Below, piece by piece: positions 25,981-50,692 of a stretch of DNA of 64,000 nucleotides. Under the pieces are notes generated by a model, which searched no databases, had not been told where the DNA came from, and saw only the letters and a program-made list of their open reading frames with translations. Origin of the DNA: Hyphomicrobiales bacterium (GTDB taxonomy: Bacteria; Pseudomonadota; Alphaproteobacteria; Rhizobiales; Devosiaceae). Every line of letters starts with the position of its first letter. The stretch's first letter is position 1. Location: assembly GCA_004144345.1 (NCBI GenBank), contig SEEL01000010.1:41718-105717 (forward strand), written 5' to 3'. The translations under genes and the position numbers were made by a program.

Positions 25981-26069
25981 ACCCCATCTATCCCCGCTAG
26001 TGTTGCGCTTCCTGCATGACTGTCATGTCGGGGTGCTGTTGCCGCGTCCGGGCAACCGTGTTCTCGTTC

Positions 26070-26083
26070 TTAACGGCAGTTAA
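26070..26083. promoter_or_regulatory. TTAAC-4-GTTAA inverted repeat upstream of exoY
   Basis: TTAACGGCAGTTAA is a five-base inverted repeat with a four-base spacer, 174 bases before the exoY start and in the only AT-richer patch of this intergenic region. It could be a regulator site for the polysaccharide operon. No regulator is identified. Confidence 0.3.
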
Positions 26084-26257
26084 CCGTGTCGATCCAACTA
26101 TAGGACCGGCCGCCGCCAATGAAGGTCGCTCGATGTAGTTGGTTCGACTGCATCTGCCTTGCCCTTCGTGCACAAGATTTGTGCGGATCGCCGATGGTGT
26201 CGCCGGGCTTGCCCGGCGGTGGGTCGCCCAGATGGGCATGCTGGTTCGGAGCGCGAG

Positions 26258-26929
26258 ATGTCGATACTCAATGCTGGACTGGGTGGAGCTGCAGTCGCCA
26301 CTGCCGGGCGCGGGCCGCGCGGCGGTACGCTGAAGCGGGCGTTCGATTTCACCTGTGCGCTGCTCATGTTGATCGCCTTCCTGCCGCTGATGGGGTTCGT
26401 GGCGCTCCTGATGCAATCGTTCGATCGCGGGCCGGTGCTGTTCGGTCATTCGCGCATCGGCTTCAACGGCCGCGTTTTCAAATGCCTGAAATTCCGCTCC
26501 ATGGTGCCCGATGCCGCAGAGGTGCTGGAGCGCCATCTGGCGGAAAACCCGGCGGCGCGGGCCGAGTGGGACGCGTCGCAAAAGCTCCGCGACGATCCGC
26601 GGGTAACGGCGCTCGGCCGGTTCCTGCGCAGCACCAGCCTCGATGAACTGCCGCAGCTCATCAATGTGCTGCGCGGCGACATGAGCCTCGTCGGGCCGCG
26701 CCCGATCGTCCATGCCGAACTGCCCCGCTATGGCAGCGATGTCGAAGCCTACATGGCGGCGCGTCCCGGCATCACCGGTCTCTGGCAGGTGAGCGGCCGC
26801 AGCGATACCGATTATGATCGCCGCGTGCAGCTCGACAGCGAATATGTGCAGAACTGGTCGCTGTTCGGCGATGTCGCCATCCTGCTGCGCACGGTCAAGG
26901 TCGTGTTCTCGCGTTCGGGCAGCTATTGA
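26258..26929 (+). CDS. exoY: Undecaprenyl-phosphate sugar phosphotransferase, ExoY-like
   Basis: A 223-residue initiating sugar transferase (bacterial sugar transferase family). It moves a sugar-1-phosphate, galactose in the Sinorhizobium counterpart, onto undecaprenyl phosphate. An N-terminal membrane hairpin (LLMLIAFLPLMGFVALLMQ) is followed by the catalytic core KCLKFRSMVPDA, TSLDELPQLINVLRGDMSLVGPRP and RPGITGLWQVSGRS. The ATG at 26258 is chosen; a longer frame from 26159 adds a Cys/Arg-rich segment. It is the first gene of the three-gene plus-strand unit exoY-GT2-exoQ, overlapping the next gene as TTGA. Confidence 0.92.
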   Translation: MSILNAGLGGAAVATAGRGPRGGTLKRAFDFTCALLMLIAFLPLMGFVALLMQSFDRGPVLFGHSRIGFNGRVFKCLKFRSMVPDAAEVLERHLAENPAARAEWDASQKLRDDPRVTALGRFLRSTSLDELPQLINVLRGDMSLVGPRPIVHAELPRYGSDVEAYMAARPGITGLWQVSGRSDTDYDRRVQLDSEYVQNWSLFGDVAILLRTVKVVFSRSGSY

Positions 26930-28176
26930 CCGATCCGGCACCGCTGGACGCCGTGACGATGCCCCCCACCAATATCCTGCTGCGCGATGAAGCCCTGGTC
27001 GGCTCAAGCACCGAGGCAAAGGCTCCGCGCCCCGACCGTCCCACCGTCTCGGTGATCGTTGCCAATTACAATGGCGAGCGGACCATCGGCGCGACGCTGG
27101 CCTCGCTGCTCGGCCAGTCGCTCAGCGCGCTCGAGATCATCGTTGTCGACGACGCCTCGAGCGATGCCAGTTGCGCCATCGTGCGCCAGCTGCAGCAGCG
27201 CGACCCGCGCGTCCGCCTCATCGCCAGTGCCGCCAATGGCGGGCCGGCGCGGGCGCGCAACCGGGCGCTCGACGCCGCCCGCGGCGAGTGGATCGCCATC
27301 GTCGATGCCGACGATCTCGTCCATCCGGAGCGGTTCGAGCGTCTCGTGGCCGCCGCCGGGCAGCTCGATGCCGATATCGTCGCCGACGATCTGCTGTTCT
27401 TTTACGAGGACGGAACCCCGTCCTCGCTGCTCCTGCCAAGCGGGCAGGAGGGGGCGTTCGAGATCACGCCCACCAGCTGGGTGCTGGCCGGCCGGTCCGT
27501 CGGGCCGCCGCTCGGCTATCTGAAGCCGCTGGTCCGCTCGCACTGGCTGGCGACGCTGCGCTATGACGAGACGCTCGGCATCGGCGAGGATTTCGATCTG
27601 ATCCTCCGGCTGCTGCTCGATGGCGCCCGCATGCAGGTGGTGGCCGAGCCCTGGTATCTCTACCGGCGCCACGCCGCGTCCTACTCACACCGGCAATCCG
27701 CCACGCATATCGAGGCCATGATCGAGAGCCAGCGGCGGCTCGAGCGCTCATTGAGTCCGGTGCCGCCGGCGCTGGCCGAGGCGTTTCGCGCCCGGCAGCG
27801 CGATCTCGAAAACTTCCTCGCCTTCCAGCATCTCGTCGCTGCTCTCAAGGGGCGCAACCTCGCGCGGGCCAGCCGGATGATACTGACGAAGCCAGCGCTC
27901 TTGCTGCCGCTCGCGAAAGCGTTCGGCGAGCATGTTGCGGCGCGGCGCGGCGCTGTGCCGGTCAGCTCCCGCGCAGCCACACCCGAGCCGCCGGCCTATG
28001 TGCCCGCGCACATCGCCCAATGGGGCGGCGAGTCACGCCGTCGCCTCTGGCTGCGCTTCGCCGATCTGGTGGACGACGGCGACAATGGTTCGCGCGGCGT
28101 CGCATCCGCCTACGCCGCCGGCTTCCGCCATCGCGCCTGGCGCGACAGGCCCAAGCCGGATGTGATGTCGCCATGA
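26926..28176 (+). CDS. Family 2 glycosyltransferase, ExoO/ExoU-like
   Basis: A 416-residue GT-A glycosyltransferase. It has the donor-binding VSVIVANYNGERTIGATLAS, VVDDASSDAS, the DxD-type IVDADDLVHPERF and the acceptor-side GIGEDFDLILRLL. The GYLKPLVRSHWL segment resembles succinoglycan ExoO/ExoU enzymes and recurs in the gene at 34109. A C-terminal extension of about 120 residues is poorly conserved. The start appears to be TTG overlapping the exoY stop as TTGA; ATG 26959 is the alternative. It probably adds a glucose to the growing repeat unit. Confidence 0.88.
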   Translation: MTDPAPLDAVTMPPTNILLRDEALVGSSTEAKAPRPDRPTVSVIVANYNGERTIGATLASLLGQSLSALEIIVVDDASSDASCAIVRQLQQRDPRVRLIASAANGGPARARNRALDAARGEWIAIVDADDLVHPERFERLVAAAGQLDADIVADDLLFFYEDGTPSSLLLPSGQEGAFEITPTSWVLAGRSVGPPLGYLKPLVRSHWLATLRYDETLGIGEDFDLILRLLLDGARMQVVAEPWYLYRRHAASYSHRQSATHIEAMIESQRRLERSLSPVPPALAEAFRARQRDLENFLAFQHLVAALKGRNLARASRMILTKPALLLPLAKAFGEHVAARRGAVPVSSRAATPEPPAYVPAHIAQWGGESRRRLWLRFADLVDDGDNGSRGVASAYAAGFRHRAWRDRPKPDVMSP

Positions 28177-34108: not shown

Positions 34109-35071
34109 ATGGACGCAAGGACAGCCGGTTCGATCGACGTCGTCATCGCGGCATGGAACAGCGCGGGCACCATTGCGCGGGCCGTGCGCTCGGTGCTGGC
34201 CGATCCGGCGGTGCGGCGCGTCATTGTCATCGACGATGCCTCGAGCGATGCGACGGCGGCCGCCGCGCGAGACGCCGATGATGGCAGCCATCGCCTCGTG
34301 GTCGAGAGGCTGGCGGCAAATGCCGGTCCGGCCGCGGCGCGCAACCGCGCCATGGCGCTGGGCGATGCCGAGTGGATCGCCATCCTCGATGCCGACGATT
34401 TTGTCGAGGACGGGCGCATGGGCCGGCTGCTGCACTGGGCGGCCGATGCCGATTTCGTGGCCGACGATCCGTTGCAGGTGCGCGAAGACGAGCTCGATCG
34501 TGTCGCGCCGGCCGCCATCCTTGGCGTCAACGAGAACTGGACGCTCAGCTTCGAGCAGTTTGTCGAGGGCAACATCAGTGTCGCCGGCCGTTCGCGCAAG
34601 GAACTGGGTTTCCTCAAGCCGATCATGCGTCGCGCTTTCCTCGCCCAACATGGCCTTGCCTATATCGAGCATCTGCGGCTCGGCGAGGATTTCGCGCTCT
34701 ATGCCGCCGCCTTGCTGAAGGGCGCGCGCTTTCGCATCGTGCCGGCACAGGGCTATGTCGCCGTGGTGCGCGAGGGATCGCTCAGCGGCAATCACAGCCA
34801 GCAGGATCTGATCAACCTCCGCGACCACGACCATCTCCTTATGGAAGATGATGGACTGACGCCCGCCGAGATGGCGCTGCTCGCGCGGCACTATCGCTCG
34901 CTCGATGCGCGCATCCAGTGGCTAGAAGTCATCGCCGCAACGAAGGCCCGCGATCTGCGGCGCGGTCTCGCGCCATTCCTGCGCTCGGCGGATGTCTCGT
35001 CATTCCTCGTGCAGCGCCTGTCCGAGCAAATCTGGCTGCGGTCGCGGCGGGCGCTGCTGCGCAGCCGCTAG
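34109..35071 (+). CDS. Family 2 glycosyltransferase, ExoO/ExoU-like
   Basis: A 320-residue GT2 enzyme. It has DVVIAAWNSAGTIARAVRS, IDDASSDATAAAARD, ILDADDFVEDGRM as DxD site and LRLGEDFALYAAALLKGA. The ELGFLKPIMRRAFLAQHG segment matches ExoO/ExoU-type enzymes and the paralogue at 26926-28176. It is a solitary plus-strand gene divergent from the flippase and converging, with four-base overlap, on exoK. It probably adds a glucose to the repeat unit; the exact step is not readable. Confidence 0.87.
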   Translation: MDARTAGSIDVVIAAWNSAGTIARAVRSVLADPAVRRVIVIDDASSDATAAAARDADDGSHRLVVERLAANAGPAAARNRAMALGDAEWIAILDADDFVEDGRMGRLLHWAADADFVADDPLQVREDELDRVAPAAILGVNENWTLSFEQFVEGNISVAGRSRKELGFLKPIMRRAFLAQHGLAYIEHLRLGEDFALYAAALLKGARFRIVPAQGYVAVVREGSLSGNHSQQDLINLRDHDHLLMEDDGLTPAEMALLARHYRSLDARIQWLEVIAATKARDLRRGLAPFLRSADVSSFLVQRLSEQIWLRSRRALLRSR

Positions 35072-35829
35072 TCGAGGCCGCCACAGGTGATCGATTGCGG
35101 GAAGAGACAGGTCTCGCCCGGCGCCGTGTAGGCGACCCAGTCGACGCTCATGGTCAGCGGTCCCGGCGGTTCGACGAACGGGCCGAGCCAGTCGTTCAGC
35201 GTCTCGGTGCCCCACAGGCTGAAGAACAGTTTCTGCGGCTGGTCCGGAACAGGGGCGGGCGCCTCGATCACATGACCAAGCTTGCCGTCGACGTAGTAGC
35301 GTACGCGACCGGGTTCCCACACGAAGGCGTAGTCGACATAGCCATCGTCCTGCTCAAGCGGCAGCGGGATCATGGCGGGTTTCACGCTCTTGCCGCGCAC
35401 AAAACCCGCGGCCTGCACCTTGCTCGGGTCTTTCAGCAGCACTTCGAAGTCGATCTCGTCGTGGATGTCGTTGTGCGGCTTGCCGGTGTAGCTGAAGAAG
35501 GCGGCGTTCAGCCCCGATCCGGACGGCGTCTTGAAGCGCGCCTCGTAGGTTCCGTAGGAGAAGAAGCCGTTCGACTGGATCTCGCCGCAGCGATAGGCGC
35601 GGTCCTGGGTGCCGGGCGCCTTGGTGAACATCAGTTCGAGGAAGCCATCGGCGATGCGGACTTCCTTGTTGGACCAGGAGCAGTTCTGGTGATCGCCATT
35701 GGTCCAGCCGTCCGACACGTACCAGCGCGAGCTGTCGAGCCGGTTGAAGTCGTCGAAGAAGCTGGTACCCGCCGCGAGTGCCGCGGGACTGGCGCAGAGC
35801 GCAAGAGCGACGAGGACGGTGCGTTTCAT
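35068..35829 (-). CDS. exoK: Glycoside hydrolase family 16 endoglycanase, ExoK-like
   Basis: A 253-residue secreted enzyme. It has a signal peptide (MKRTVLVALALCASPAALAA), a GH16 beta-jellyroll and the catalytic motif HDEIDFEV with Glu125, Asp127 and Glu129. SYGTYEARFKTPSGSGLNAAFF precedes it as in lichenases. ExoK trims the extracellular polysaccharide to control its length. Two C-terminal cysteines (ETCLFPQSITCGG) could form a disulfide. It overlaps the exoF-like gene as ATGA. Confidence 0.9.
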   Translation of the reverse strand: MKRTVLVALALCASPAALAAGTSFFDDFNRLDSSRWYVSDGWTNGDHQNCSWSNKEVRIADGFLELMFTKAPGTQDRAYRCGEIQSNGFFSYGTYEARFKTPSGSGLNAAFFSYTGKPHNDIHDEIDFEVLLKDPSKVQAAGFVRGKSVKPAMIPLPLEQDDGYVDYAFVWEPGRVRYYVDGKLGHVIEAPAPVPDQPQKLFFSLWGTETLNDWLGPFVEPPGPLTMSVDWVAYTAPGETCLFPQSITCGGLD

Positions 35830-37046
35830 AGAGTCGCCTCGGCAGTCGAGATGCTCACCGTCACGACATCGCCCGGTTGCACCACATCGTTCTGGCCGAC
35901 GGCAAGCTCGGCGCCGGCGCGCGTGACCATGTAGCGATAGGCAATGGCGCCGAACTCGCTTTCGGGCAACTCGTCGAGCGTGGCGGCTTCACCGATCAGC
36001 TGCAATTGCGTGGTCAGCCGCTGTTCGAGGTCCGACAGGTCGCTATCCACCTGCCGGCGCTCACGCGACGCCAGCAGGAACTGCTCCGACGACACGCCCG
36101 TCCGGGCGAGCGCCGCATTGCTCCGGTCCTGCTGGGCGCGCAGTTTTGCGGTTTCGAGATCGAGCAGCCGCGACTCGAGATCGGCAATCGCGGTCTGCGT
36201 CGTCGAGGCGCGCGTTTCGACGGCGAGACCGCTGTCGACGAGGCCCTGGATTTTCTCGAGCTGCGCGCGCATCTGTTCAAGCTGGGCGGTCGTCGACAGG
36301 CGCTTCTGCTCCAGCGCCTCAAGCGTCGCATCGATCAGGCTTTCTTGCGCGGCATAGGTCGCGATGCGGTTGTCGGCCTGCTGCATCTGCACTTTCAGTT
36401 CGGCGGCTTCCGCGGCGACGAGATCGGCGACGGAGGCGGCTTCGAGCCCGGCCGGCGCCACCATCTCGCCGCTGCCATTGATCAGCGCATCGAGGCGGGC
36501 CCGCCGCACCAGCAGGCGCACGCGCTGTTCGCGCAGCACATTGTAGGTGCCTTGCAGCGTGATGAGGTCGCGACCGGTGGCGGTGGCGCCGTCGCCGCGG
36601 CGAAGACCTCCGGCGAGACTGATGCTCTGCAGCACGGTGAGGCGCGGCGAAAAGGGATAGGCGCCGGGCTGGCTGACTTCGCCGGTGACATAGACGGCGC
36701 CGAAATTGACGATCTCGACCGTCACATCGGGTGGATTGCTGAGCCCGAGCGACAGTCGCAGGCCGGAGCGCAGCTCCTTGGCGAGATCCACCGGCGTCTT
36801 GCCGATGGCCGCCATCGGCGGCATGAACGGGAAGGCGATCGCGCCATCGGGGCCGACGGCATACTCGCCTGAAACGGCGCTCCAGCGATTGACGGTGGCC
36901 TCGGCGTCCTGCCAGTCGATGACGCGGATGGACAGGCGATCCGACGGGCCGACGCGATAGGGTTCCACCGCTGCTGCGGGAACAACCATTGCCGTGAGTA
37001 TGGTAACAAAGGCGAGCAGCAGCGAAAGCGCAGGCAGCCTATTCAT
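35826..37046 (-). CDS. exoF: Polysaccharide export outer-membrane family protein, ExoF-like
   Basis: A 406-residue periplasmic export protein of the Wza/ExoF group. After a signal peptide (MNRLPALSLLLAFVTILTAM) come the poly-export domain (YRVGPSDRLSIRVIDW, then SLGLSNPPDVTVEI) and SLBB-like GEVSQPGAYPFSPRLTVLQSISLAGG. A long coiled coil (about 205-345, Gln/Ala/Leu-rich) follows, ending QPGDVVTVSIS. It lacks a lipobox Cys, like ExoF and unlike Wza. It would couple ExoP-driven assembly to export. It lies 109 bases downstream of the lasso kinase gene on the same strand. Confidence 0.88.
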   Translation of the reverse strand: MNRLPALSLLLAFVTILTAMVVPAAAVEPYRVGPSDRLSIRVIDWQDAEATVNRWSAVSGEYAVGPDGAIAFPFMPPMAAIGKTPVDLAKELRSGLRLSLGLSNPPDVTVEIVNFGAVYVTGEVSQPGAYPFSPRLTVLQSISLAGGLRRGDGATATGRDLITLQGTYNVLREQRVRLLVRRARLDALINGSGEMVAPAGLEAASVADLVAAEAAELKVQMQQADNRIATYAAQESLIDATLEALEQKRLSTTAQLEQMRAQLEKIQGLVDSGLAVETRASTTQTAIADLESRLLDLETAKLRAQQDRSNAALARTGVSSEQFLLASRERRQVDSDLSDLEQRLTTQLQLIGEAATLDELPESEFGAIAYRYMVTRAGAELAVGQNDVVQPGDVVTVSISTAEATL

Positions 37047-37155: not shown

Positions 37156-38109
37156 TCAGGGCGAGGGCGTTGCCGCGAGGTCGGCCTCCACCAGCGGCGC
37201 GATTTCGCCGAGGCGGTCGAGGCCGAGCGGGTTGACCAGCTTGCGCACCATGCCCTGGCCCGCCAGCCAGCCGGCGCGCGCAAAATAGTCCTGCAGGCGG
37301 TCGCCGAATCCGGCTTCGCCGCGCTTGGCCTGATAGGAAAAGCGCAGCAACAGGCTGACCGATTGCGCGGCATCGATGGGCTCGATGCGGGGCTGTTCGG
37401 CGCGATTGAGCAGATAGATGCGGCGCAGCGGCGTGGCGGCCGGGGCCGTTGGCTGGAGCAGCGGAAAACTGGCCTTGTCGATCGCCTCGTGCCAGCGGGC
37501 GCCTTGCCCGAGCGGCAGCGTTGCGAGTGCGGCGGCGCTATCCGGCCAGAGCTTCAATTGCGAGATGGCCGGGAGGATCAGCGGCCGCAGCGGGTCGGAA
37601 AAATCCAACGCCACCAGATCGTCCGACACCAGCTGGTGACCACCGGCCACAAGGCTCGCCGCCGTGGTCGATTTGCCCGCGCCCTTGTCGCCGAGCAGGG
37701 CCACGCCGGCGCCGTTCACGGCGAGCGCGCTCGCATGCAGCAGGAACAGGCCACGCCGATGGAGCAGGGCGGCGAACACCGCGCCGAGCAGCGGCTGCGA
37801 CGCGAGGAGATCGTCGACGTCGTCATTCAGCTCGACCTCGATGCGGTCGTCGCTGACGACGTAGAACGCACCAACCTGTGGCCAGGACAGGCGCTGCGTG
37901 CGGCCGTCATTGACATAGTCCGAGTCCGATGGCGCCACATCGGGCGCCGGTCTCGGGGGGCGGCGGATGATCGAGACGGTGCCGCCCGACCCACCGCCGC
38001 TCGCCGCGCTCACACCGGCCAGCTCGATGTCCGAGACGACGTCGAGGTCGAACAGGCGATAAATGCGGGGTGTGTCCGCCATCGGTGTCCGGTTCGCGGC
38101 CTGATTCAT
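37156..38109 (-). CDS. HPr-kinase-like lasso peptide kinase
   Basis: A 317-residue protein with the HprK C-terminal kinase fold. LFLLHASALAVNGAGVALLG leads into the P-loop GDKGAGKST (about 140-148), followed by GGHQLVSDDLVALD. It lacks the N-terminal HprK domain. Its ATG overlaps the cyclase stop (ATGA), so it belongs to the lasso cluster. Homologues in paeninodin-type clusters phosphorylate a serine at the C-terminal end of the lasso precursor; here the only core serine is Ser24, second to last. Phosphorylation of Thr8, Thr16 or Thr22, or a role outside lasso maturation, cannot be excluded. The C-terminal part beyond residue 220 is variable. Confidence 0.85.
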   Translation of the reverse strand: MNQAANRTPMADTPRIYRLFDLDVVSDIELAGVSAASGGGSGGTVSIIRRPPRPAPDVAPSDSDYVNDGRTQRLSWPQVGAFYVVSDDRIEVELNDDVDDLLASQPLLGAVFAALLHRRGLFLLHASALAVNGAGVALLGDKGAGKSTTAASLVAGGHQLVSDDLVALDFSDPLRPLILPAISQLKLWPDSAAALATLPLGQGARWHEAIDKASFPLLQPTAPAATPLRRIYLLNRAEQPRIEPIDAAQSVSLLLRFSYQAKRGEAGFGDRLQDYFARAGWLAGQGMVRKLVNPLGLDRLGEIAPLVEADLAATPSP

Positions 38110-39950
38110 GCCGCGGCCCTCCGCGCATGGCGCCGGCGGTCATCGAGCCACATGCCGAGCATGGCAATGCGCGTCAGCATCAGCACGTCGCTGCCCTCGA
38201 TTGCTTCGGGGTTGCGGCGCATATCGTCCAGCAGTTTCCGCACCCCCGGTAAATCGACATAGCCTGCAAGCGGCGAGCCGGGGGCGATGAGGTCGGGCAG
38301 CAGATCGTCTTCTGCCATGCGCGCGCCGAGTTCCTTACTGAAATCGATCTTGGTCCGCCGCGTGCGGACTTGCTCGGGCAGGATGCCGCGCATTGCCTCC
38401 CGCAGCGTGACGCGCGTCCAGCCGTTGCGCAGCAGTCCCGATTCCGGGATGGCCAGCGCATAGGTCACGAGCCGGTGGTCGTAGAAGGGAAAGCGGATTT
38501 CGACGCCACCGGCCGTGGCAGCGCGGTTCATGATCTCGAGCGCCCGCGCCACCATCGGCGATGTCAGGCTCCACACGTGCTCGCTGGTGGCGCTGCGCTG
38601 CTGCGAGCGGGCGTGCGCCTGCCACGTCGCCAGCCGCTCGCCCAGCCGGTGCTTGTCGATGAAGGCGGGATCGACGAGACCGCCCACGGCGCGGCTCGGC
38701 GTCCGCGCGAGCCGCAACAGCCACTGCCGCGGCAGTGCCTGCCGCAGGCGATAGGGCAGGCCGTACTGGATGAAATAGGATGCGAACAGGCTCGTGATCG
38801 ACTGGCCGTAAATGGACCGCACGCCCGCCAGTTCGCGAAGCAATGCCGGCCATCTGTGCGCGCGCGCCAGTTCGCCCAGCCGGCCGAAACCGTGCGAGGC
38901 GACTTCATCGCCGCCATGTCCATCGAGAATGACGTCGACGCCCTGGCCCCTCGCGGCATTGAGCACGCGCCCGAGTTTCGCCAGCCCCGGCGCAAAGATC
39001 AGATCGTCATTGCCGTCGACGAGCGGCATCAATTCACGAAAGGGGGCGAGGCCGGACATGTCGACCAGCTGCGGCGACAGGGGATAGGCCGCGGCCACTG
39101 CGCGTGCATAGGGCCATTCCGACAGCGGCGAACTCTCGGGATAGCCGAAGGTGAAGGTCGGCATCGGCGGCCGGCTGCCTCGCAAGGGCCCTGCGGCGAG
39201 CGAGACGATCGACGATGAATCGAGCCCGCCGCTGAGCATGGCGCCGACGCGGCGGTTCCCCGAAGTGCTGTCGGCGACCGAGCGCGTCAGCCGCTCGCGA
39301 AATCCCGCCGCGAAGTCCTCGTTGGCCGGGAGTTCGTCCGGCGCGCACAGCCAGTAGCGGGAGATCATCGGCTCGCTACCGATCGACCAGAGCATTTTGT
39401 GGGCCGGCGGCAGGCGCTGGATCGCGCTGAAGATCGTCGTGCTGGTGCTGTCGAGGATGCCGCCGAGGAAGGCGGCAATCTGTGCCTCGTCGACTGCGTC
39501 ATCGGCATGGCTGAGCGCGCTGACGGTCGAGGCGAATTCGAAGGCTTCGCGCGTCTGCCGGTAGCAGAGCGGCCGGATGCCCATGCGGTCGCGCGCGCAA
39601 AAGATCGTGTTGCGCTCGGCGTCCCAGATGGCGAAGGCGAAGTCGCCATCGATTTGCTCAAGGCACGCCTCGCCCCAGTGGCGATAGGCTTCGACAATCA
39701 GGGCCGTGTCGGTGACGCGGCTCGCGGCGAGGCCGAGCCTGCCGGCCAGGTCAGTGCGCCCAGCGAGGCGCGCATCGGCAAGCCCGACCAGTGTTCGTCC
39801 GCCGGCGATCTCTGAGCGGTGCAGCAGCGGCTCATGTCCGGTGCCGCTCCAACTGAGGGTCGCCGTGCCGTCGGAGAAATGCCGGCCCGGCTCCATTGCC
39901 TGCGGCCGAAGCAGCTTGTCCCTCGCAACGCGGCCCGCAATCTCTGCCAT
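38106..39950 (-). CDS. Lasso peptide cyclase (asparagine synthetase-like, C protein)
   Basis: A 614-residue homologue of asparagine synthetase B acting as the ATP-dependent lasso macrolactam synthetase. The N-terminal GATase-like domain runs to about 165 (EACLEQIDGDFAFAIWDAER, ARDRMGIRPLCYRQ). It lacks the nucleophilic Cys2 (Met-Ala-Glu), as expected for an enzyme that uses a peptide carboxylate rather than glutamine ammonia. The ATP-pyrophosphatase loop SGGLDSSS is at 240-247, with DGHGGDEVASHG later. It activates Asp9 of the core and joins it to Gly1. Its start shares one base with the B2 stop (TGATG). Confidence 0.93.
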   Translation of the reverse strand: MAEIAGRVARDKLLRPQAMEPGRHFSDGTATLSWSGTGHEPLLHRSEIAGGRTLVGLADARLAGRTDLAGRLGLAASRVTDTALIVEAYRHWGEACLEQIDGDFAFAIWDAERNTIFCARDRMGIRPLCYRQTREAFEFASTVSALSHADDAVDEAQIAAFLGGILDSTSTTIFSAIQRLPPAHKMLWSIGSEPMISRYWLCAPDELPANEDFAAGFRERLTRSVADSTSGNRRVGAMLSGGLDSSSIVSLAAGPLRGSRPPMPTFTFGYPESSPLSEWPYARAVAAAYPLSPQLVDMSGLAPFRELMPLVDGNDDLIFAPGLAKLGRVLNAARGQGVDVILDGHGGDEVASHGFGRLGELARAHRWPALLRELAGVRSIYGQSITSLFASYFIQYGLPYRLRQALPRQWLLRLARTPSRAVGGLVDPAFIDKHRLGERLATWQAHARSQQRSATSEHVWSLTSPMVARALEIMNRAATAGGVEIRFPFYDHRLVTYALAIPESGLLRNGWTRVTLREAMRGILPEQVRTRRTKIDFSKELGARMAEDDLLPDLIAPGSPLAGYVDLPGVRKLLDDMRRNPEAIEGSDVLMLTRIAMLGMWLDDRRRHARRAAA

Positions 39951-40396
39951 CAGGGCGACGGTCCGAAGGTGGCGATGACCCGGAAGTTCGCTAGGTCCGG
40001 GCCGGCGCCCGTCACCAGCCTGCCGTCGACAATCAGCCAGGCATGCGAACGGAGCGATCGCGAGCCGCTCCCTTGCACGCCGAGGAACAGCACGGCGTGA
40101 ATGCCTCGATTGGCGAGGATGATCTGGCAGGCCTGCGCCTGGGTGAGGCACGAGGCGAACGGCACGAAATACGAGACGAACGCGACCGCCTTGCCGACGC
40201 GCCGCGCTGCCCAAAAGTCGGTAGTGGCCGGCAGTGCCTCTGGCAGCAGGCGGGCGCGCACGGCGTTCAGGCCGCCAAAGCTCAGGCCAAGGCGTACCCG
40301 CGCAACCATTGCCGCAATGGCCACGCCGCTCCGCAGCGACCGCCACAAGCTCAGCGAAATGCCGCTATTCGGCGTGCTGCTGGTCAACAATGACAA
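39950..40396 (-). CDS. Lasso peptide leader peptidase (B2, transglutaminase-like)
   Basis: A 148-residue cysteine protease that removes the lasso leader. The catalytic triad is visible: Cys83 in ASCLTQAQACQI, His118 in SLRSHAWLIVDG and Asp124. The N-terminal helical region (SLWRSLRSGVAIAAMVARVR) is typical of B2. It starts with TTG at 40396, preceded at six bases by a full AAGGAGG (40403-40409) located inside the B1 gene, so start choice is firm. It overlaps B1 by 32 bases and the cyclase by one. Confidence 0.92.
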   Translation of the reverse strand: MSLLTSSTPNSGISLSLWRSLRSGVAIAAMVARVRLGLSFGGLNAVRARLLPEALPATTDFWAARRVGKAVAFVSYFVPFASCLTQAQACQIILANRGIHAVLFLGVQGSGSRSLRSHAWLIVDGRLVTGAGPDLANFRVIATFGPSP

Positions 40397-40640
40397 GCGC
40401 GGCCTCCTTGAGCTCGCCCAGCAGCTGATCCACGTCAGCGCTGCACAGCTCGGGCGTCACCTCATATTCGCGCACGACCGCGTCGACGAGGTCGTTGCGG
40501 CTCATGGGCGTATCCATCTGGCTCCACAGGAAGGCGCCGACATCGTTGAGGCTGAAATAGGTGTTGCTGGTCAGGTCCAGCAGGGCCAGACCATTCCCCA
40601 GATCGGTCGACACAACATTGGCCGAACGCGCGAGCCGCAT
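40365..40640 (-). CDS. Lasso RiPP recognition protein (B1, PqqD-like)
   Basis: A 91-residue PqqD-family RiPP recognition element that binds the leader of the precursor and presents it to B2 and the cyclase. The PqqD pattern is clear: VVSTDLGNGLALLDLTSNTY, FSLNDVGAFLWSQMDTP and a C-terminal helix DVDQLLGELKEAALVIV. A GAGG lies seven bases ahead of the ATG. It follows the precursor after 70 bases that contain a hairpin. B1 and B2 are split proteins, as in several Gram-positive and a subset of proteobacterial lasso clusters. Confidence 0.92.
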   Translation of the reverse strand: MRLARSANVVSTDLGNGLALLDLTSNTYFSLNDVGAFLWSQMDTPMSRNDLVDAVVREYEVTPELCSADVDQLLGELKEAALVIVDQQHAE

Positions 40641-40671
40641 TTACCTGCCTCGAAGTCCGAGTTCAGTAGTT

Positions 40672-40702
40672 GGCCGCCGACAGACAGAATCCGCCGGCGG
40701 CC
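40672..40702 (-). other. Hairpin between lasso precursor and B1 genes
   Basis: An 8-bp perfect stem GGCCGCCG/CGGCGGCC (40672-40679 with 40695-40702) with a 15-base loop. No U-run follows. It sits between the precursor and the enzyme genes, where such elements commonly let more precursor than enzyme be made. Confidence 0.65.
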
Positions 40703-40710
40703 GATACCCG

Positions 40711-40854
40711 TCAATCCGAGAACGTCAGTTCGTTCTGCGGAGTCTTCGGGGGGAAAAGCGCGTCGGTAAACGCGCCGTCCGCGGCACCCTTCGTGATCTT
40801 CTCGACGGAGCCGTGAGCGGTCAGACGCGGAGTGGAGTATGTACGCTTCTTCAT
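40711..40854 (-). CDS. Lasso peptide precursor (A)
   Basis: A 47-residue gene, not obvious among longer frames. The leader (22 residues) contains YSTPRLTAHGSVEKITK, matching the lasso leader pattern Y-x2-P-x-L-x3-G-x5-T with Thr at -2. The predicted core begins GAADGAFTD, so Gly1 and Asp9 would form a nine-residue macrolactam ring. The tail is ALFPPKTPQNELTFSD. Bulky plug candidates are Phe12, Lys15, Gln18, Asn19 and Phe23. Ser24 is the likely kinase target. There is no Cys, so it would be a class II lasso. A GGAG lies eight bases before the ATG, and B1, B2, cyclase and kinase follow on the same strand. Exact cleavage and ring size are predictions. Confidence 0.9.
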   Translation of the reverse strand: MKKRTYSTPRLTAHGSVEKITKGAADGAFTDALFPPKTPQNELTFSD

Positions 40855-41045
40855 CTTCCAGTCTCCAAGTGAGGATTGTGTCTCCGGCAGAGTTCGTCTG
40901 TCGTTTGCACAATCGCCATCTGCCTATCGCCGGTTTTTCAAGTCAAGGCGACGGCGATCACGCATTGCCGCTATGACGGTTGCTGACTTGCACATTTTTT
41001 CATCATCACCTTAGCTGGACGGCGACGACAAGACCGTCGTTCTAA
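40855..41045. promoter_or_regulatory. Divergent promoter region for lasso operon and nucleotidyltransferase
   Basis: This 191-bp interval must drive the lasso operon leftward and the nucleotidyltransferase rightward. A TTGACT (minus strand, 40946-40941) could be a -35 for the precursor, but no convincing -10 follows at 16-18 bp. A T-rich run (40992-41001 region) and the inverted ACGAC/GTCGT (41025-41040) are also present. The exact promoters are not resolved. Confidence 0.35.
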
Positions 41046-42143
41046 ATGATCGGTTCTGTGATGGCGCCCACGCCCGGCGAGTCTGATCTTGCCCTCGCTC
41101 ATCTGACGCAATGTCTGCGCGCGCAACTCGCGGGCGCGGCAGCGCCCGAACCGCCCCCCGCCGGCGTCGCCGACCTGGCCGTTTCCATCGCCCTGTCAGC
41201 CAAGCTGCCTAGCCTGGCGGGCCGCTATCTCGATGTGACAGGTCAACGGTCGGCAGCGCTCGCCCAATATGCCGCCGCAACAATGTCGCGCAATGCCGAA
41301 GCGTGCCGCGAAATAAGTTCCGTATCTCGCGCGCTGACCGCAAGAAATATTGATTTTATTACTATAAAAGGACCGCTGCAGCATTTTGATTTATACGGAA
41401 GTTACTTCGTACGAAGATCGTCTGACATAGATTTAGTCGTAAGGCGCGCCGATTTCGCGACAGCAAAATCTTCAATATCCGACCTCGGATACTTGCTATC
41501 GACAGTGTCATATTGGTGGGAAGCGGTGCTGGGCGAAGTCCATTTCGAGCGCGCCGAGCCAGTGCGGGGCGCCATCGATCTGCATTGGCATACGCACCAG
41601 CCGGGCGTGCCCAGCGTGCGCAGCGAGACCGTGTTCTTCAAGCGAACGGCGAACGCCATTCTGGACGGTCAGCAGATCCCCATCCTCGACCGGGACGGCA
41701 CCCGGTTGCTGATCGTTATCAGTATCGCCAAAGCGCTCTACAATCGGGAGCCCAGTGCTGCCTATATTTGTGACTTATTCCAAAGCCTCATACCTGCCTC
41801 TCCCGGGGCGATTAACTCATTCTTAACCGATGCGGACCGGCAGGGGGTGGGCGGTCACGCCGCCATCGCCCTGCGGCTCGTGAAGGCGATGTTCGGCGAT
41901 GCCTTCCCCTATGATCCGGCGAGTGCGCCGGTGCTGACATCGTGGTCATCGGACGATCTGCTCAGAATGGCGTTCTTGCCGCGAGCCGAAAGTACGGCCT
42001 GGCCGCGGCGGCGAGAGCTGGTGTGGCAGTTCTGCGGGCGCTCACCCCTGCGCTATGCCCAGGAATTTGCGCTCATCGGCCTCTCGGAGATCGTGCGGCG
42101 CATCTTCGAGCGCGGCACGGCGCGCGCCGCGCATCGGGACTGA
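41046..42143 (+). CDS. Nucleotidyltransferase (PF14907-type), probable lasso tailoring enzyme
   Basis: A 365-residue member of the uncharacterised nucleotidyltransferase family (NTP_transf_5). The catalytic motif is ITIKGPLQHFDLYG followed by RRSSDIDLVVRR with Asp127 and Asp129. AIDLHWHTHQPG downstream is also family-typical. In paeninodin and pseudomycoidin-type lasso clusters a protein of this family accompanies the kinase and modifies the phosphate. Divergent placement 191 bp from the precursor supports that here. The stretch 41336-41520 is clearly more AT-rich than its surroundings, hinting at recent acquisition. The start may instead be ATG 41061. Confidence 0.8.
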   Translation: MIGSVMAPTPGESDLALAHLTQCLRAQLAGAAAPEPPPAGVADLAVSIALSAKLPSLAGRYLDVTGQRSAALAQYAAATMSRNAEACREISSVSRALTARNIDFITIKGPLQHFDLYGSYFVRRSSDIDLVVRRADFATAKSSISDLGYLLSTVSYWWEAVLGEVHFERAEPVRGAIDLHWHTHQPGVPSVRSETVFFKRTANAILDGQQIPILDRDGTRLLIVISIAKALYNREPSAAYICDLFQSLIPASPGAINSFLTDADRQGVGGHAAIALRLVKAMFGDAFPYDPASAPVLTSWSSDDLLRMAFLPRAESTAWPRRRELVWQFCGRSPLRYAQEFALIGLSEIVRRIFERGTARAAHRD

Positions 42144-43186: not shown

Positions 43187-45466
43187 CTAGATTTTGGCGG
43201 GCGGCGCCGGGCGGAAGTAATTGCCATAGGCACCCATGTAGCGCTCGGCCTCGCCCATCTCGCTGTAGCGCGAGAGCTTTGGCAAATTCACCTTGTTGAG
43301 CACGGCGCCGATGACGCTGGCCTCGATCTGGGCGTCCTGCTCGAGCGTCGTGCGCACCAGGCGGCGCGGCGTGCGGCCCCATTCCACCACCAGCATCACG
43401 CCATCGGTATAGGGGATGATCGAGCGCGCATCGACGATCGGCCCGAGTGGCGGCAGGTCGACGATGACGAAGTCGAACTCATCGCGCGCCTCGCGCAGCA
43501 GTTCCGCCAGCTGGCTCGACACCAGCCCATCGGTACCGGCGCGCGGCGCCGTCGTCACCGCCGGCAGCACCGACAGGCTGCTGCCCTCGGCGCGATGCAG
43601 CATGTTGCGCCACGGCATGCCGTTGAGCGCTTCGACCAGCCCGCTCACCGCATAGGGCGCGGCGATGCGGCTCGTCGCGGGATGCCGCAGGTCGCCGTCG
43701 ATCAAGAGGACCTGCTGGCCGGTCAGCGACATCAGTTCGGCGAGCGCGATCGCATAGGTCGTCTTGCCCTCGCCGGGCAGGATCGACGAAATGCCGATCA
43801 CCACGCCGCGGCCGTGATGCCGCTGTGCCTGGATAAGCATTTTTCCTGTCTTCAGCGTTTCGACGAAAGTGGCCACGGCAAAATCCGGGCTCGCCTCGAT
43901 CATATGCTTGCGCAAAGTCTGGTGCAGTTGATCCTCGGGCAGGGTCGCACCCAGCTTGATGCCGCGTCCGCGCCGCAGGCGCAGATCCGGCAGATAACCG
44001 GCGAAGCGGACGCCGAGGTCGCGGGTAACCTGGCTGCCCAGCCGGAACGAGCGTTCGCGCAATTCATTGATCGCGCCGAAGCAGAGGCCGAGGAAGGCGC
44101 CGAACAGCGTCGCGCCGACCAGCGTGAAGGTCGAGCGCGGGCTGATGGCGCCACCGGGCACGGTCGGCGCGGTAATCAGCCGGGCCGAGGTGATCGGGAA
44201 GGATTGCCGGCGGATCGCTTCCTCATAGGAGGTGAGGAAGGAATTATAGAGCGTTTCCAGCGCCGAGGCCTTCTGCGCGAGCTGCGCCAGTTCCACCTGC
44301 GACTGCGTGGTGAGTGCCGAGCGCTCGCCTTCGCTCTGCACATCGGCGCGCAATTGCGTCTCGCGGCCCTCGGCGACGCGCAGCGCATTGGCGTAGCGCT
44401 CGCCGAGCTGCTGCAGCTGGGTGAAGATGGCGCTGCTCTTTTCGTCGAGCTGGCGCTGCAACACCGCGATCTGCGGATGGTCGGCGCCGAACGTAGCCGT
44501 CACTTCGACGATGCGGCGGTCGATGGCCGAATAGTCATTGAGCAGTGCGGCCGTCGTCGGGTCGGCATCGCCGGTGAGCAGCACCGAGGCATTGGCGCCG
44601 GCGGCGGCCGGACCTTCGGCCACGGCGCGCTGCACCTGTTCGTTGAGCGCCCGGGCGCGGGCGGTCTCCGATTGCGCCACGACCAGTTGCGCGGTCAGGC
44701 CGTCGAGCCGCTGCTGGAACAGGCGCTGGTCCTGCGCCACCGAATGGCCGCTCGACAGGCGGAAGGCCTCGACGGCATCCGACGCCTGGCGGCGGCTGGC
44801 GCTCAATTGCACCAGCTGGTCCTGCAGCCAGCTCGTCGCCTGCGAGGCGATATCGCCATTGAGCTGCTCGCGGGTGAACGCCTGCGCATAGGCAGAGGCG
44901 ATGCGCTGCGCCAGTTCGGGCGAATGCGACATGTAGCCGACGCTGAGCACGGAGCTGCGGCCGACACGCCCGACGACGAGCCCGCCCTTCAGATATTCGG
45001 TCGCGTCCTCGACGGAGATTTCCGTCAGCTGCCGCCGCTCGCCGCCACCGAAAGGCCCGAGCACGATCTGCCGCAGCCGGCCCGTGAAGGAGGGCGGCGG
45101 GTTGAGGAAGGTGACGTCGGTATTGAGCCCCTCGGCTTCCACCACGGAGCGGGCGACGCGGCTCGAACGCAGCAATTCGCTCTGGTTGGAAAGCTCGGAC
45201 TCGATCGTCGCGACGCTGGTCTGGTTCATCACATCGCTGACCATGCCCTGGACGTTCTGGTCGATCAGGATGGCGCCTTCAGAGTAATAGAGACGCGGCG
45301 CGAGGCTCAGATAGACCACGCCCAGCATCAGGCCGATGCCGATGCAGATCGCGAAGATGCGCCATTGCCGGAGCAGGGCGCTGAGCAGGCGGTCGAGATC
45401 GAGGAACCGGACATCGCGGCCGGGCACGCGCTCGGCGAGTCCCTGCGACTGACTTTTCTCAAGCAT
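43187..45466 (-). CDS. exoP: Polysaccharide co-polymerase tyrosine autokinase, ExoP/Wzc-like
   Basis: A 759-residue inner-membrane protein controlling chain length. The N-terminal Wzz domain has a first membrane helix (IFAICIGIGLMLGVVYLSL) and a periplasmic coiled coil (about 190-410). A second helix (TFTLVGATLFGAFLGLCFG) follows. The cytoplasmic BY-kinase has Walker A PGEGKTT, Walker A' LLIDGDLRHP and Walker B FVIVDLPPLG. A tyrosine cluster ends the protein (YSEMGEAERYMGAYGNYFR). The ATG at 45466 overlaps the preceding glycosyltransferase gene by eight bases. Phosphorylation state would set polymer length. Confidence 0.94.
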   Translation of the reverse strand: MLEKSQSQGLAERVPGRDVRFLDLDRLLSALLRQWRIFAICIGIGLMLGVVYLSLAPRLYYSEGAILIDQNVQGMVSDVMNQTSVATIESELSNQSELLRSSRVARSVVEAEGLNTDVTFLNPPPSFTGRLRQIVLGPFGGGERRQLTEISVEDATEYLKGGLVVGRVGRSSVLSVGYMSHSPELAQRIASAYAQAFTREQLNGDIASQATSWLQDQLVQLSASRRQASDAVEAFRLSSGHSVAQDQRLFQQRLDGLTAQLVVAQSETARARALNEQVQRAVAEGPAAAGANASVLLTGDADPTTAALLNDYSAIDRRIVEVTATFGADHPQIAVLQRQLDEKSSAIFTQLQQLGERYANALRVAEGRETQLRADVQSEGERSALTTQSQVELAQLAQKASALETLYNSFLTSYEEAIRRQSFPITSARLITAPTVPGGAISPRSTFTLVGATLFGAFLGLCFGAINELRERSFRLGSQVTRDLGVRFAGYLPDLRLRRGRGIKLGATLPEDQLHQTLRKHMIEASPDFAVATFVETLKTGKMLIQAQRHHGRGVVIGISSILPGEGKTTYAIALAELMSLTGQQVLLIDGDLRHPATSRIAAPYAVSGLVEALNGMPWRNMLHRAEGSSLSVLPAVTTAPRAGTDGLVSSQLAELLREARDEFDFVIVDLPPLGPIVDARSIIPYTDGVMLVVEWGRTPRRLVRTTLEQDAQIEASVIGAVLNKVNLPKLSRYSEMGEAERYMGAYGNYFRPAPPAKI

Positions 45467-46412
45467 CCGATGCCTCCGCTCTGGCGTGGTCGAGGTGATT
45501 GTTGTTGGGGTCTCTGCCGCCATAGATCGCGGCCTGGCGCGTGCCGGCGAGGCCGCCGAGCACGCCCAGATGCAGCGTCGCGCGCAGCAGATTGCGCCGC
45601 CACGCCACGGGCGAGGGCAGGGTCAGCGCTGTTATCGTGAGGCAGTAGGCGATCTTGGCGAGCGCGAGCGCGCCCGTTCGCGCGGCTTGCGCCGGACGGC
45701 CACGCCGCGCCTGCGCGCCATGCGTCTGTCCGGCCCGCAGCCGCCTTTGCAGCAGCCAGCCGAAACTGGCGCGCCCCGCCGGCACGGGCTCGCGCACCAA
45801 GGCATCGGGCGCAAAGACAAGACGGCCGCCCCGTTCATAGAGCCGGGTGAAATAGTCGGTGTCCTCGCCGCCGCTGGTGCCGAGGCCGATGTCGAAGCGC
45901 AACGGCCGCGACAGCTCGCTGCGCCGGATCAGCACGTTGCAGGTGTAGCCGGTGAGGATCTCGCCCTTCACAATCACCGGGAGGGTCGAGTGAAAGTCGC
46001 CGCGCCGCATCCAGTCCGGTGTCGACGGATCGTAGACGGCCTCGACCGGCCCGAGCACGGCATCGGCGCCCGTTCGCAGCGCCTCGGCGTAGAGCGCCAG
46101 CAGCCAGGTCGGGGTCACGGTCTCGTCGTCATCAACGAAGGCAATGAACTCGGCATCGGCGGCATCGAGGCACGCATTTCGCGCGACCGAGATGTTGCGC
46201 GCCGGTCCATGAACATAGTGCACGGCGAAAGGGAGGGCCGGCCGCAGCGCATCGACCAGCGCAGCCGCCGACGGCGTGTCATCATTGTCGGCAATGACGA
46301 TCCTGACGGTCAGCCCGTCCACCTCCAGCGCGGCGAGCGATTTCAGGGTCTCGGCCAGATAGGGCCGGCGGAAGGTGCAGACGCACACATCGAGGCGCGC
46401 GATGGCCGTCAA
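45459..46412 (-). CDS. exoM: Succinoglycan-type glucosyltransferase, ExoM-like
   Basis: A 317-residue GT2 enzyme very like ExoM. It has LDVCVCTFRRPYLAETLKSL, IADNDDTPSAAALVDALRP, ARNACLDAADAEFIAFVDDD, WMRRGDFHSTLPVIVKGEI and GLGTSGGEDTDYF. ExoM adds a glucose to the lipid-linked intermediate. The start is TTG at 46412, overlapping the stop of the next upstream gene as TTGA. The longer frame adds an Arg-rich N-terminus without homology. The C-terminal LRAGQTHGAQARRG and membrane-like helix are retained. Confidence 0.9.
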   Translation of the reverse strand: MTAIARLDVCVCTFRRPYLAETLKSLAALEVDGLTVRIVIADNDDTPSAAALVDALRPALPFAVHYVHGPARNISVARNACLDAADAEFIAFVDDDETVTPTWLLALYAEALRTGADAVLGPVEAVYDPSTPDWMRRGDFHSTLPVIVKGEILTGYTCNVLIRRSELSRPLRFDIGLGTSGGEDTDYFTRLYERGGRLVFAPDALVREPVPAGRASFGWLLQRRLRAGQTHGAQARRGRPAQAARTGALALAKIAYCLTITALTLPSPVAWRRNLLRATLHLGVLGGLAGTRQAAIYGGRDPNNNHLDHARAEASDA

Positions 46413-48850: not shown

Positions 48851-50692
48851 ATGCCGGTTGCCTCCACCCCCCGCGCCAGCCGCTGGGCATCGCTGACGTC
48901 GTTGTTTGCCGCGTTCGGTTCGCTCGGGCCGTTCGCGCCCTTCATCTACAGGCACCGGCTCGAGCTGGCGGGCGCCCTCATCTTCCTTGTCGGCTCCACC
49001 GTCGCCACGCTCGCCATTCCGCTCGGTATCGGCCATTTCATTGATCGCGGCCTGCTCGAGCGCAGCCTCGAAGGCTTCGGCCAGTCGGCCGGCTTCGTCC
49101 TCATTGCGGCGGCCCTCGCGGCCATTGCCAGCGGGCTGCGCTTCTATCTCGTCAGCCGGCTCGGCGAACTTATCATCCGCGACCTCCGCCAGGCGGTCTT
49201 CGCCAAGCTGATCTCGCTCGATGTCGCCTTCTATGACTCCCATCGCGTCGGCGAACTCACCGCACGCCTCACCAGCGACGCGGCGGCCGTGCGCGGCATC
49301 GTCGCGACGGTCGTGACGCAGGCGGTGCGCGCCGGCATCACCATTACCGGCGCCCTCGTCATGATGGCGGTGATGAGCCTGCCGCTCACCCTCGCGGTCG
49401 TCGCCGCCGGGCCCGTGGTGCTTCTCCCCATCATCATTGTCGCCCGGCGCCTGCGCCACATGGCGCGGCAGGCGCAGGACGCCAATGCCGAACTCTCGGC
49501 CATGGCGACCGAAGTGCTGGGCGCCAACCGCACCGTCAAATCCTTCGTCCAGGAGGACGCGCAGCTCCAACGCTACGCCGCCAGGAGCGATGACAATTTC
49601 CGCGCCGAGACCAGCAAGCTCGGCACCCGTGCCATCATCGTCACCGCCATCACCTTCATTTCCGCCGCCGCCATGGTCGGGCTGGTGCTGCTGGGCTCGA
49701 CCGAAGTGCTGGCGGGGCGGCTGAGCCCGGGGCAACTGACGCAGTTCCTCGTCTATGCCTTCATCGCCGCGGGCTCGCTCACCGGCCTCTCCGAGATCGT
49801 CGGCTCGCTCAATACGCTCAGCGGCGCCACCGAGCGCCTGTCGGAACTCTTCGCGCTAAAGCCCGCCATCGCCGCGACGGGCGAGGAGACGCCGCTCCGG
49901 GCGCCGGTCACCCGGATCGCCTTCGATCGCGTCGTCTTCGCCTACCATCCGGACGACGCGCCCGCTCTCAACCGGCTCAGCTTTTCGCTGCGCGCCGGGC
50001 AGACCCTGGCGCTGGTTGGCCCCTCGGGCGCCGGCAAATCGACCATCTTCTCGCTGCTGCAGCGCTTCTACGATCCGACCGCAGGCAGCATCACCATCAA
50101 CAATGTCGACATTCGCAGCCTCGATCCCCGCGAACTGCGCGGGCTGATCGCCGCGGTCGAGCAGGAACCGACCGTCTTTGCCGGCACCATCCGCGACAAT
50201 CTGCGCTTCGGCCGGGTCGGCGCCAGCGACGCCGATATCCGGCGGGCGGCCGATCTCGCCCTGATCAGCGAATTCGCCGACAGCCTGCCGCGCGGCCTCG
50301 ATACGATTGTGGGCGAGCGGGGTGTCCGGCTCTCCGGCGGCCAGAAGCAGCGCCTCGCCATCGGCCGCGCCTTGCTCAAGGAGGCGCCGATCCTGCTGCT
50401 CGACGAGGCGACCAGCGCCCTCGACACCGCCAATGAGCGGCTGCTGCAGGCGGCGCTGGCGCAATTGCGCAAGAACAGCACCACGCTGGTCATCGCCCAC
50501 CGGCTCTCGACCATCCAGTCGGCCGACAAGATCATCGTCGTCGAAAAGGGCCGAATCGTCGAACGCGGCAAGCACGACACGCTGCTCGCCTATCGCGGTC
50601 ATTACGAGAAACTGGTCCGCATGCAGTTCTCGCCCACCGACCTGCCGCTGCACGGCCCGGCAAAGCCCCGCGACCCGGCGCTTCTGTCCTGA
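48851..50692 (+). CDS. exsA: ExsA/MsbA-like ABC exporter (fused permease-ATPase)
   Basis: A 613-residue half transporter. Six membrane helices lie within residues 25-330, followed by an ATPase domain. That domain has Walker A GPSGAGKST, Q-loop EQEPTVFAGTIRDNL, signature RLSGGQKQR, Walker B ILLLDEATSALD and His in IAHRLST. It would act as a homodimer in the inner membrane, exporting lipid or polysaccharide-linked substrates. Sinorhizobium ExsA sits beside the exo genes in the same way, so I use that symbol with moderate certainty. It belongs to the same broad exporter class as lasso D proteins, so lasso export is a possible alternative role. Confidence 0.85.
   Translation: MPVASTPRASRWASLTSLFAAFGSLGPFAPFIYRHRLELAGALIFLVGSTVATLAIPLGIGHFIDRGLLERSLEGFGQSAGFVLIAAALAAIASGLRFYLVSRLGELIIRDLRQAVFAKLISLDVAFYDSHRVGELTARLTSDAAAVRGIVATVVTQAVRAGITITGALVMMAVMSLPLTLAVVAAGPVVLLPIIIVARRLRHMARQAQDANAELSAMATEVLGANRTVKSFVQEDAQLQRYAARSDDNFRAETSKLGTRAIIVTAITFISAAAMVGLVLLGSTEVLAGRLSPGQLTQFLVYAFIAAGSLTGLSEIVGSLNTLSGATERLSELFALKPAIAATGEETPLRAPVTRIAFDRVVFAYHPDDAPALNRLSFSLRAGQTLALVGPSGAGKSTIFSLLQRFYDPTAGSITINNVDIRSLDPRELRGLIAAVEQEPTVFAGTIRDNLRFGRVGASDADIRRAADLALISEFADSLPRGLDTIVGERGVRLSGGQKQRLAIGRALLKEAPILLLDEATSALDTANERLLQAALAQLRKNSTTLVIAHRLSTIQSADKIIVVEKGRIVERGKHDTLLAYRGHYEKLVRMQFSPTDLPLHGPAKPRDPALLS

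Follow-up and report, generated by a model that had tools for sequence, protein, structure and literature searches.

A lasso peptide gene cluster in the window

The subject of this report is a six-gene lasso peptide cluster at positions 37156..42143 of a 64,000-nucleotide stretch of contig SEEL01000010.1 from a Hyphomicrobiales bacterium of the Devosiaceae (assembly GCA_004144345.1). The whole stretch is referred to here as the window. The genes for the precursor (A), B1, B2, C and K are encoded on the minus strand, and a nucleotidyltransferase gene (NT) is divergent from them on the plus strand. NCBIfam and Pfam models identify each of the six genes at the positions given in a preliminary description made from the sequence alone. 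The cluster sits inside a Wzx/Wzy-type exopolysaccharide (EPS) locus. That description had reported the nesting for the window, which understated it: among the complete clusters with this type of precursor, meaning those with A, B1, B2, C and K, the neighbourhood was read for 56 in three orders, and all 56 have EPS genes next to them. The features of the cluster are as follows.

40711..40854, minus: lasso precursor A, 47 aa, MKKRTYSTPRLTAHGSVEKITKGAADGAFTDALFPPKTPQNELTFSD; NF033528 and NF033521 above cut-off
40789..40854, minus: leader
40714..40788, minus: predicted core, 25 residues, GAADGAFTDALFPPKTPQNELTFSD
40762..40764, minus: codon of Asp9, predicted ring-closing residue (Gly1-Asp9)
40714..40719, minus: codons of Ser24 (predicted phosphorylation site) and the extra C-terminal Asp25
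40365..40640, minus: B1, PqqD-like leader-recognition protein; PF05402, 67.2 bits
39950..40396, minus: B2, transglutaminase-like leader peptidase; NF033537, 65.5 bits against a cut-off of 33
38106..39950, minus: C, Asn-synthase-type lasso cyclase (ATG at 39950); PF00733
37156..38109, minus: K, HPr-type peptide kinase; Hpr_kinase_C, PF07475
41046..42143, plus: NT, PF14907 nucleotidyltransferase, divergent from the precursor
48851..50692, plus: MsbA-like ABC gene, candidate exporter; a homologous ABC gene adjoins K or Wzc in relatives

All frames of the cluster are open, and the B1, B2 and C enzymes of lasso clusters are all present. Cys83 and His118 of B2 are kept in 10 of 10 aligned sequences, and the SGGLDS motif of the cyclase is conserved in a 41-row alignment. 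The cluster had been described as complete, with all genes overlapping. Completeness stands for the precursor, B1, B2, C, K and NT, but does not extend to an adjacent exporter: none directly adjoins the window cluster, and the candidate ABC gene lies outside the 37156..42143 span. In the clusters of Mesorhizobium (here the GTDB genus of Mesorhizobium amorphae) and Paracoccus, the ABC gene is directly 3' of the kinase gene. Overlap holds for B1/B2 (32 nt), B2/C (1 nt) and C/K (4 nt), but not for the precursor, which lies upstream of B1 and is separated from its start by a gap of 70 nt. A scan of the window from 34 to 46 kb with Rfam gave no matches.

Precursor, leader and core

Lasso cores typically have a small residue at position 1 and an Asp or Glu at about positions 7-9, and class II lasso peptides have no disulfide and no Cys in the core. 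The window core begins with Gly1, carries Asp9 and lacks Cys, consistent with class II. The precursor scores 35.8 bits with NF033528 (cut-off 33) and 23.5 bits with NF033521 (cut-off 19). NF033528, the "lasso_cyano" model of NCBIfam, matches precursor residues 3-31, but the match ends at core Asp9, ahead of the conserved tail. Thr21 at the penultimate leader position, which a published abstract gives as a lasso feature, is invariant in 52 of 52 aligned sequences. The leader also fits the motif [Y/W]xxPx[L/V/I/A/F/Y] given for lasso leaders (PMC13381572), reading Y6-S-T-P9-R-L11; in the 52 aligned sequences Pro9 is invariant and Tyr6 is present in at least 90%. A chance open reading frame is ruled out by the curated models and by 113 distinct related cores.

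These cores derive from a precursor profile search that returned 111 proteins, which together with the precursors of the loci gave 154 sequences, 140 of them fitting the core pattern. The 14 dropped were 12 leader-only sequences with other cores, one truncated sequence and P0079, the lone tail-bearing sequence that does not fit. Because the set was gathered by similarity to the precursor profile, the conservation in it is partly built in. The core consists of a variable ring, with positions 2-7 differing among the 113 distinct cores, and a conserved tail, D-A-x-F-P-x-x-T-P-x-x-x-L-T-F-S. Position 1 is Gly in 94 cores, Ala in 17, Ser in 1 and His in 1. Asp9, Phe12 and Thr16 are found in 113 of 113, Asp9 and Thr16 having been demanded by the pattern; the earlier prediction of a Gly1-Asp9 core for the window precursor is supported. 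Pro13 is present in 108 cores, Pro17 in 107, Leu21 in 104, Thr22 in 108 and Phe23 in 101. At the C-terminus, 100 cores have Ser, 6 have Thr (106 for Ser and Thr together) and 4 have Asp. The ending LTFS is found in 80 cores and LTFSD in 4, the window included; P0040, which is counted among the 113, has a differing end.

The ratio of nonsynonymous to synonymous polymorphism (pN/pS) was calculated for 41 distinct Mesorhizobium precursor genes, taken from 41 of 42 loci, with L115 left out for its TTG start. The leader has a value of 0.04, ring positions 1-8 reach 0.50 and positions 9-24 lie at 0.20, a pattern that fits a conserved function of the tail and a freer ring. Strings of the window core or of the tails of its relatives had no match in open-licence PMC papers, which accords with the earlier statement that no product with this core has been described.

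Several variants of the precursor were observed. The LTFSD ending is also found in P0071 and P0093, which belong to other precursor lineages, and in P0001, which is near-identical to the window precursor. An Erythrobacter-like branch (P0076, P0089-P0092, P0094-P0096, P0098, P0100 and P0102; loci L163 and L165) has Cys at core positions 4 and 23, which suggests a ring-tail disulfide. Locus L169 (genome G1104) contains a tandem pair of precursors at about 9.7-10.0 kb, the first with a different core ending in DMTFS. Locus L164 (genome G1072) contains an orphan precursor ending in ..DLTCGLEDGLS, and the same genome has a second, complete cluster, L165.

Kinase and nucleotidyltransferase

The kinase has a PEPCK/HPrK fold. 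Its residues H125, K146, D163 and D164, the His-Lys-Asp-Asp motif of HPr-type peptide kinases, are invariant in 24 of 24 aligned sequences. Assignment to the HprK-related kinase A family (TIGR04352) was rejected, the score of 33.7 bits being far under the cut-off of 200. D127, D129 and D178 of NT are invariant in 22 of 22 aligned sequences. The NT fold is like that of MenT1 and ANT(2''), with a weaker likeness to FKRP; a search of PDB sequences with the NT profile gave no match. The same profile matches the NT genes of the lasso loci L019 and L023 of Paenibacillus and Cohnella.

Linkage to exopolysaccharide genes

The lasso module of the window is placed between the polysaccharide export gene (Poly_export) and the GalU and Wzc-like genes. 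Glycosyltransferases and a pyruvyl transferase also belong to the locus. Its annotated EPS genes are as follows.

26159..26929, plus: initiating sugar transferase; PF02397, 216.8 bits
28020..29426, plus: Wzy-type polymerase/ligase; PF04932
32406..33980, minus: Wzx-type flippase; PF13440
34109..35071, plus: family 2 glycosyltransferase; its homologue adjoins the cluster in 40 of 40 Mesorhizobium loci
35068..35829, minus: GH16 endo-glycanase, ExoK-like; NF052392, 336.6 bits, slightly below the cut-off of 350
35826..37046, minus: polysaccharide export protein (ExoF-like); PF02563, 58.5 bits
42186..43163, plus: UTP-glucose-1-phosphate uridylyltransferase (GalU); TIGR01099 above cut-off
43187..45523, minus: Wzc/ExoP-like chain-length protein; TIGR01005, 379.6 bits, below the cut-off of 411.7; PF02706

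An open reading frame at 25997-27019 on the minus strand is the antisense shadow of the sugar transferase gene at 26159-26929 on the plus strand and can distort homology counts. The linkage counts were made without its profile.

The 56 clusters comprise 4 from Devosiaceae, 42 from Mesorhizobium, 2 from another genus of the same order, 1 from a Paracoccus plasmid and 7 from Sphingomonadales, and NT is present in 53 of them. Linkage to EPS genes was recounted in 54 of 54 clusters and was then found in 2 of 2 from the genus met only afterwards. The gene order changes among the EPS-linked clusters. The three other Devosiaceae genomes with the cluster (G064, G544 and G556) have the order ABC, Wzc, NT, A, B1, B2, C, K, Poly_export, GH16. 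The precursor is present in 4 of 136 Devosiaceae genomes and a Wzc-like gene in 37 of 136, with the four precursor carriers among them (hypergeometric P 0.005). In the window's own genus, as represented in the family set, the precursor and the Wzc-like gene were found in the window genome only. At a threshold of 1e-20, the kinase was found in 3 of 151 relatives.

Six EPS loci of Devosiaceae without a lasso cluster (L201-L206) were read for comparison and gave no matches to lasso genes. All six contain Wzc and the same run of glycosyltransferases, and GalU adjoins Wzc in 3. Wzx, Wzy and the sugar-transferase site are present in five; the sixth is a 10.5-kb contig end. Since much of the EPS gene set is retained in relatives that lack the cluster, the latter would be an optional module, one that presumably modifies or decorates the coat and is not part of the polymer machinery.

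In Mesorhizobium, the precursor profile matches 106 of 146 genomes, 103 at full length and 3 in the leader only. The preliminary description had singled out conservation of the precursor frame in relatives as a check on the prediction, and the prediction passes it: the kinase is present in 103 of 146 genomes, exactly those with the full-length precursor. The surroundings were read in 42 of the 103, of which 40 were selected so as to have long contigs and to span a range of E-values, and L014 and L015 were added. All 42 loci contain NT, A, B1, B2, C, K and the ABC gene in EPS surroundings (the precursor of L115 starts with TTG). Among the 40, GH16 is present in 39, the family 2 glycosyltransferase in 40 and the flippase in 38, each locus having at least two EPS families.

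Other taxa yielded further clusters. In Paracoccus, the cluster and EPS genes are on one 41.8-kb plasmid, and a gene for a "hypothetical" protein of 45 aa is the precursor. In 396 genomes of Sphingomonadales there were 24 matches to the precursor profile, full-length in 7 genomes at 8 places; seven of the eight contain A, B1, B2, C, K and an EPS gene, and the eighth is the orphan L164. A survey of 397 genomes of the order gave 11 matches, namely two known Devosiaceae, six known Mesorhizobium, two in a new genus (G1137 and G1170) and one leader-only match. The six belong to one genus and have coordinates equal to those of genomes in the 146-genome set. The new-genus loci (L216 in G1137 and L217 in G1170) contain A, B1, B2, C, K and the ABC gene in a rich EPS locus, with no NT match within 20 kb. 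A survey of the class (385 genomes) found the window and one leader-only match.

As a control, other lasso-kinase loci were examined, 21 in number, defined as having K, C and B1 or B2 among 56 loci without the conserved tail (52 of at least 54 listed and four of genome G099). One of the 21 (L025) had an EPS-profile match, consisting of two open reading frames that match a single glycosyltransferase profile; nine of the 21, L025 included, are from Alphaproteobacteria. The positive loci served to build the EPS profiles, and the control is weak for distant taxa because these profiles are silent in the two Bacilli loci L019 and L023, which belong to a group reported to be often capsule-linked. No weight is placed on a Fisher test of the contrast, which assumes independence and counted 47 positives.

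Three further settings of such genes were encountered. In Blastomonas aquatica (L027, 8500-10918), a kinase and NT pair is located in an EPS locus in which B1, B2 and cyclase were not detected; this pair is perhaps a non-lasso phosphopeptide system. Plasmid pSMS3-2 of Antarctobacter heliothermus (L081, 10940-31363) has a different lasso-type set among glycosyltransferase genes, with a precursor candidate that has no DATFP tail. Genome G099, of the same order as the window genome, has four loci (L009-L012) with HPr-type kinases and Asn-synthase-like cyclases; the open reading frame at 9259-10824 of L009 presumably encodes a sulfotransferase-like protein, judging from a motif.

Proposed function and alternatives

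The EPS linkage across all 56 clusters points to a role of the peptide in concert with the coat. We consider it probable that the EPS-nested cluster directs the synthesis of a Gly1-Asp9 threaded peptide that is likely phosphorylated at Ser24, likely sugar-capped and likely exported to act with the EPS. In this pathway, B1 would bind the leader motif Y6xxP9xL11, and the kinase would phosphorylate the linear precursor ahead of folding, as PadeK does. B2 would then remove the leader behind Thr21-Lys22, and the cyclase would link Gly1 with the side chain of Asp9. NT may place a sugar, or a nucleotide first, on the phosphate, in line with reports on PsmN and pseudomycoidin. The capped peptide would be exported and would act together with the EPS. 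The product, its phosphorylation and the EPS link are predictions made from sequence.

A number of observations weigh against this proposal. The window precursor does not end in Ser: Ser24 is penultimate and Asp25 is last. The preliminary description assigned the cluster to the phosphorylated type, and this is upheld by the kinase and NT with their catalytic residues but not by the C-terminus. With a Ser-Asp ending in place of the strict C-terminal Ser, the precursor is not filed under the phosphorylated type; by gene set it would work like a member of it. NT had no match within the stretch read in 3 of the 56 clusters (L168, L216 and L217), making sugar capping the least general step, and in the case of pseudomycoidin a host enzyme might have supplied the hexose (PMC9266682). 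In 2 of the 56 clusters (L165 and L168) the Wzc-like gene is the sole EPS match. The orphan precursor of L164 has no B1, B2, C, K or EPS-profile match within 20 kb. The lasso-less loci L201-L206 gave no Poly_export match over the stretch read and thus mark the empty site only approximately. Finally, two surface or conflict traits may have hitch-hiked together, which would account for the EPS linkage.

Most characterised lasso peptides are diffusible natural products, and the peptide might be an ordinary secreted antibiotic or signal like paeninodin or pseudomycoidin, with the EPS locus as a favoured landing site or shared regulon and no link to the polysaccharide. The variable ring, with its pN/pS of 0.50, and the patchy occurrence in Devosiaceae (4 of 136) and on a plasmid in Paracoccus would suit such a product, as would the gain-loss history of related Bacilli systems, which PMC13381572 reads as typical of biological conflicts. 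We nonetheless regard this explanation as unlikely. EPS genes accompany all 56 clusters, in three orders and with changing gene order, the tail shows purifying selection, and 103 of 146 Mesorhizobium genomes carry the cluster. Moreover, no immunity gene, isopeptidase or TonB receptor was found among the neighbouring window genes that were scanned, which are a part of all open reading frames.

The Ser-Asp ending raises the prospect that the window strain makes the lasso peptide in unphosphorylated form, Asp25 having become the C-terminus and the kinase no longer modifying the peptide. The paeninodin-type and Syan kinases phosphorylate the C-terminal Ser of their precursors (PMC9266682, PMC8498205), one review stating that the lasso kinase specifically recognises that residue (PMC8498205), and Asp follows Ser in P0071, P0093 and P0001 as well as in the window. 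However, the kinase and NT keep all catalytic residues, and a recurrent ending would be odd if it disabled an enzyme that is retained. The related LPP kinase acts on an internal residue, Ser3 (PMC13381572), and a terminal position is therefore not obligatory for this enzyme class. Phosphorylation of the window peptide is likely, and its loss seems quite improbable. A decayed or silent passenger is more improbable by far: the window genome is the sole carrier of its genus in the family set, as a passenger might be, but the frames are open, B1, B2, C and K overlap, and the catalytic residues are intact.

Significance

The role of kinase-type lasso peptides is described as open in Bacilli (PMC13381572, 2026). 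The family reported here provides a tractable case, with one precursor type, carriage by 103 of the 146 genomes in a symbiont genus, EPS linkage wherever the surroundings were read, and lasso-less EPS loci for comparison. Rhizobial EPS matters for nodulation, according to published abstracts, and a conserved EPS-locus peptide in Mesorhizobium, whose members are nitrogen-fixing symbionts, may be a component of coat or symbiosis chemistry that has been missed. Precursors with the Ser-Asp ending provide a natural test of whether lasso kinases need a terminal Ser.

Comparison with known systems

A close parallel in gene content is pseudomycoidin, whose psm cluster in Bacillus pseudomycoides contains lasso genes with a putative kinase and an annotated nucleotidyltransferase, and in which phosphate and then one or two hexoses are placed on the C-terminal Ser (PMC9266682, PMC8498205). 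That system is from Bacillota and its precursor ends in Ser, whereas the window precursor ends in Ser-Asp, has the D-A-x-F-P...LTFS tail and is encoded in an alphaproteobacterial EPS locus. Paeninodin and SyanA/SyanK of Sphingobium yanoikuyae share an HPr-type kinase with the His-Lys-Asp-Asp residues (PMC9266682). Their precursors also end in Ser, unlike that of the window (PMC9266682, PMC8498205).

Embedding in a polysaccharide locus is not new as such, because paeninodin-like lasso and LPP clusters are reported within capsular polysaccharide loci of Bacilli, with their role left open (PMC13381572, 2026). Those clusters resemble the one described here in having an RRE, an HprK-like kinase, an NTP transferase and an MsbA-like transporter in polysaccharide loci. 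They differ in being mostly from Bacillota, and their LPPs are linear and accompanied by a SipW-like peptidase. A biofilm role for them is the authors' speculation (PMC13381572). No report of EPS-embedded lasso clusters of Alphaproteobacteria was found among the listed titles and abstract beginnings of open-licence PMC papers. As far as that search goes, three things are new here: the family in Alphaproteobacteria with its conserved tail, the constancy of that family in Mesorhizobium, and a Ser-Asp ending that occurs naturally.

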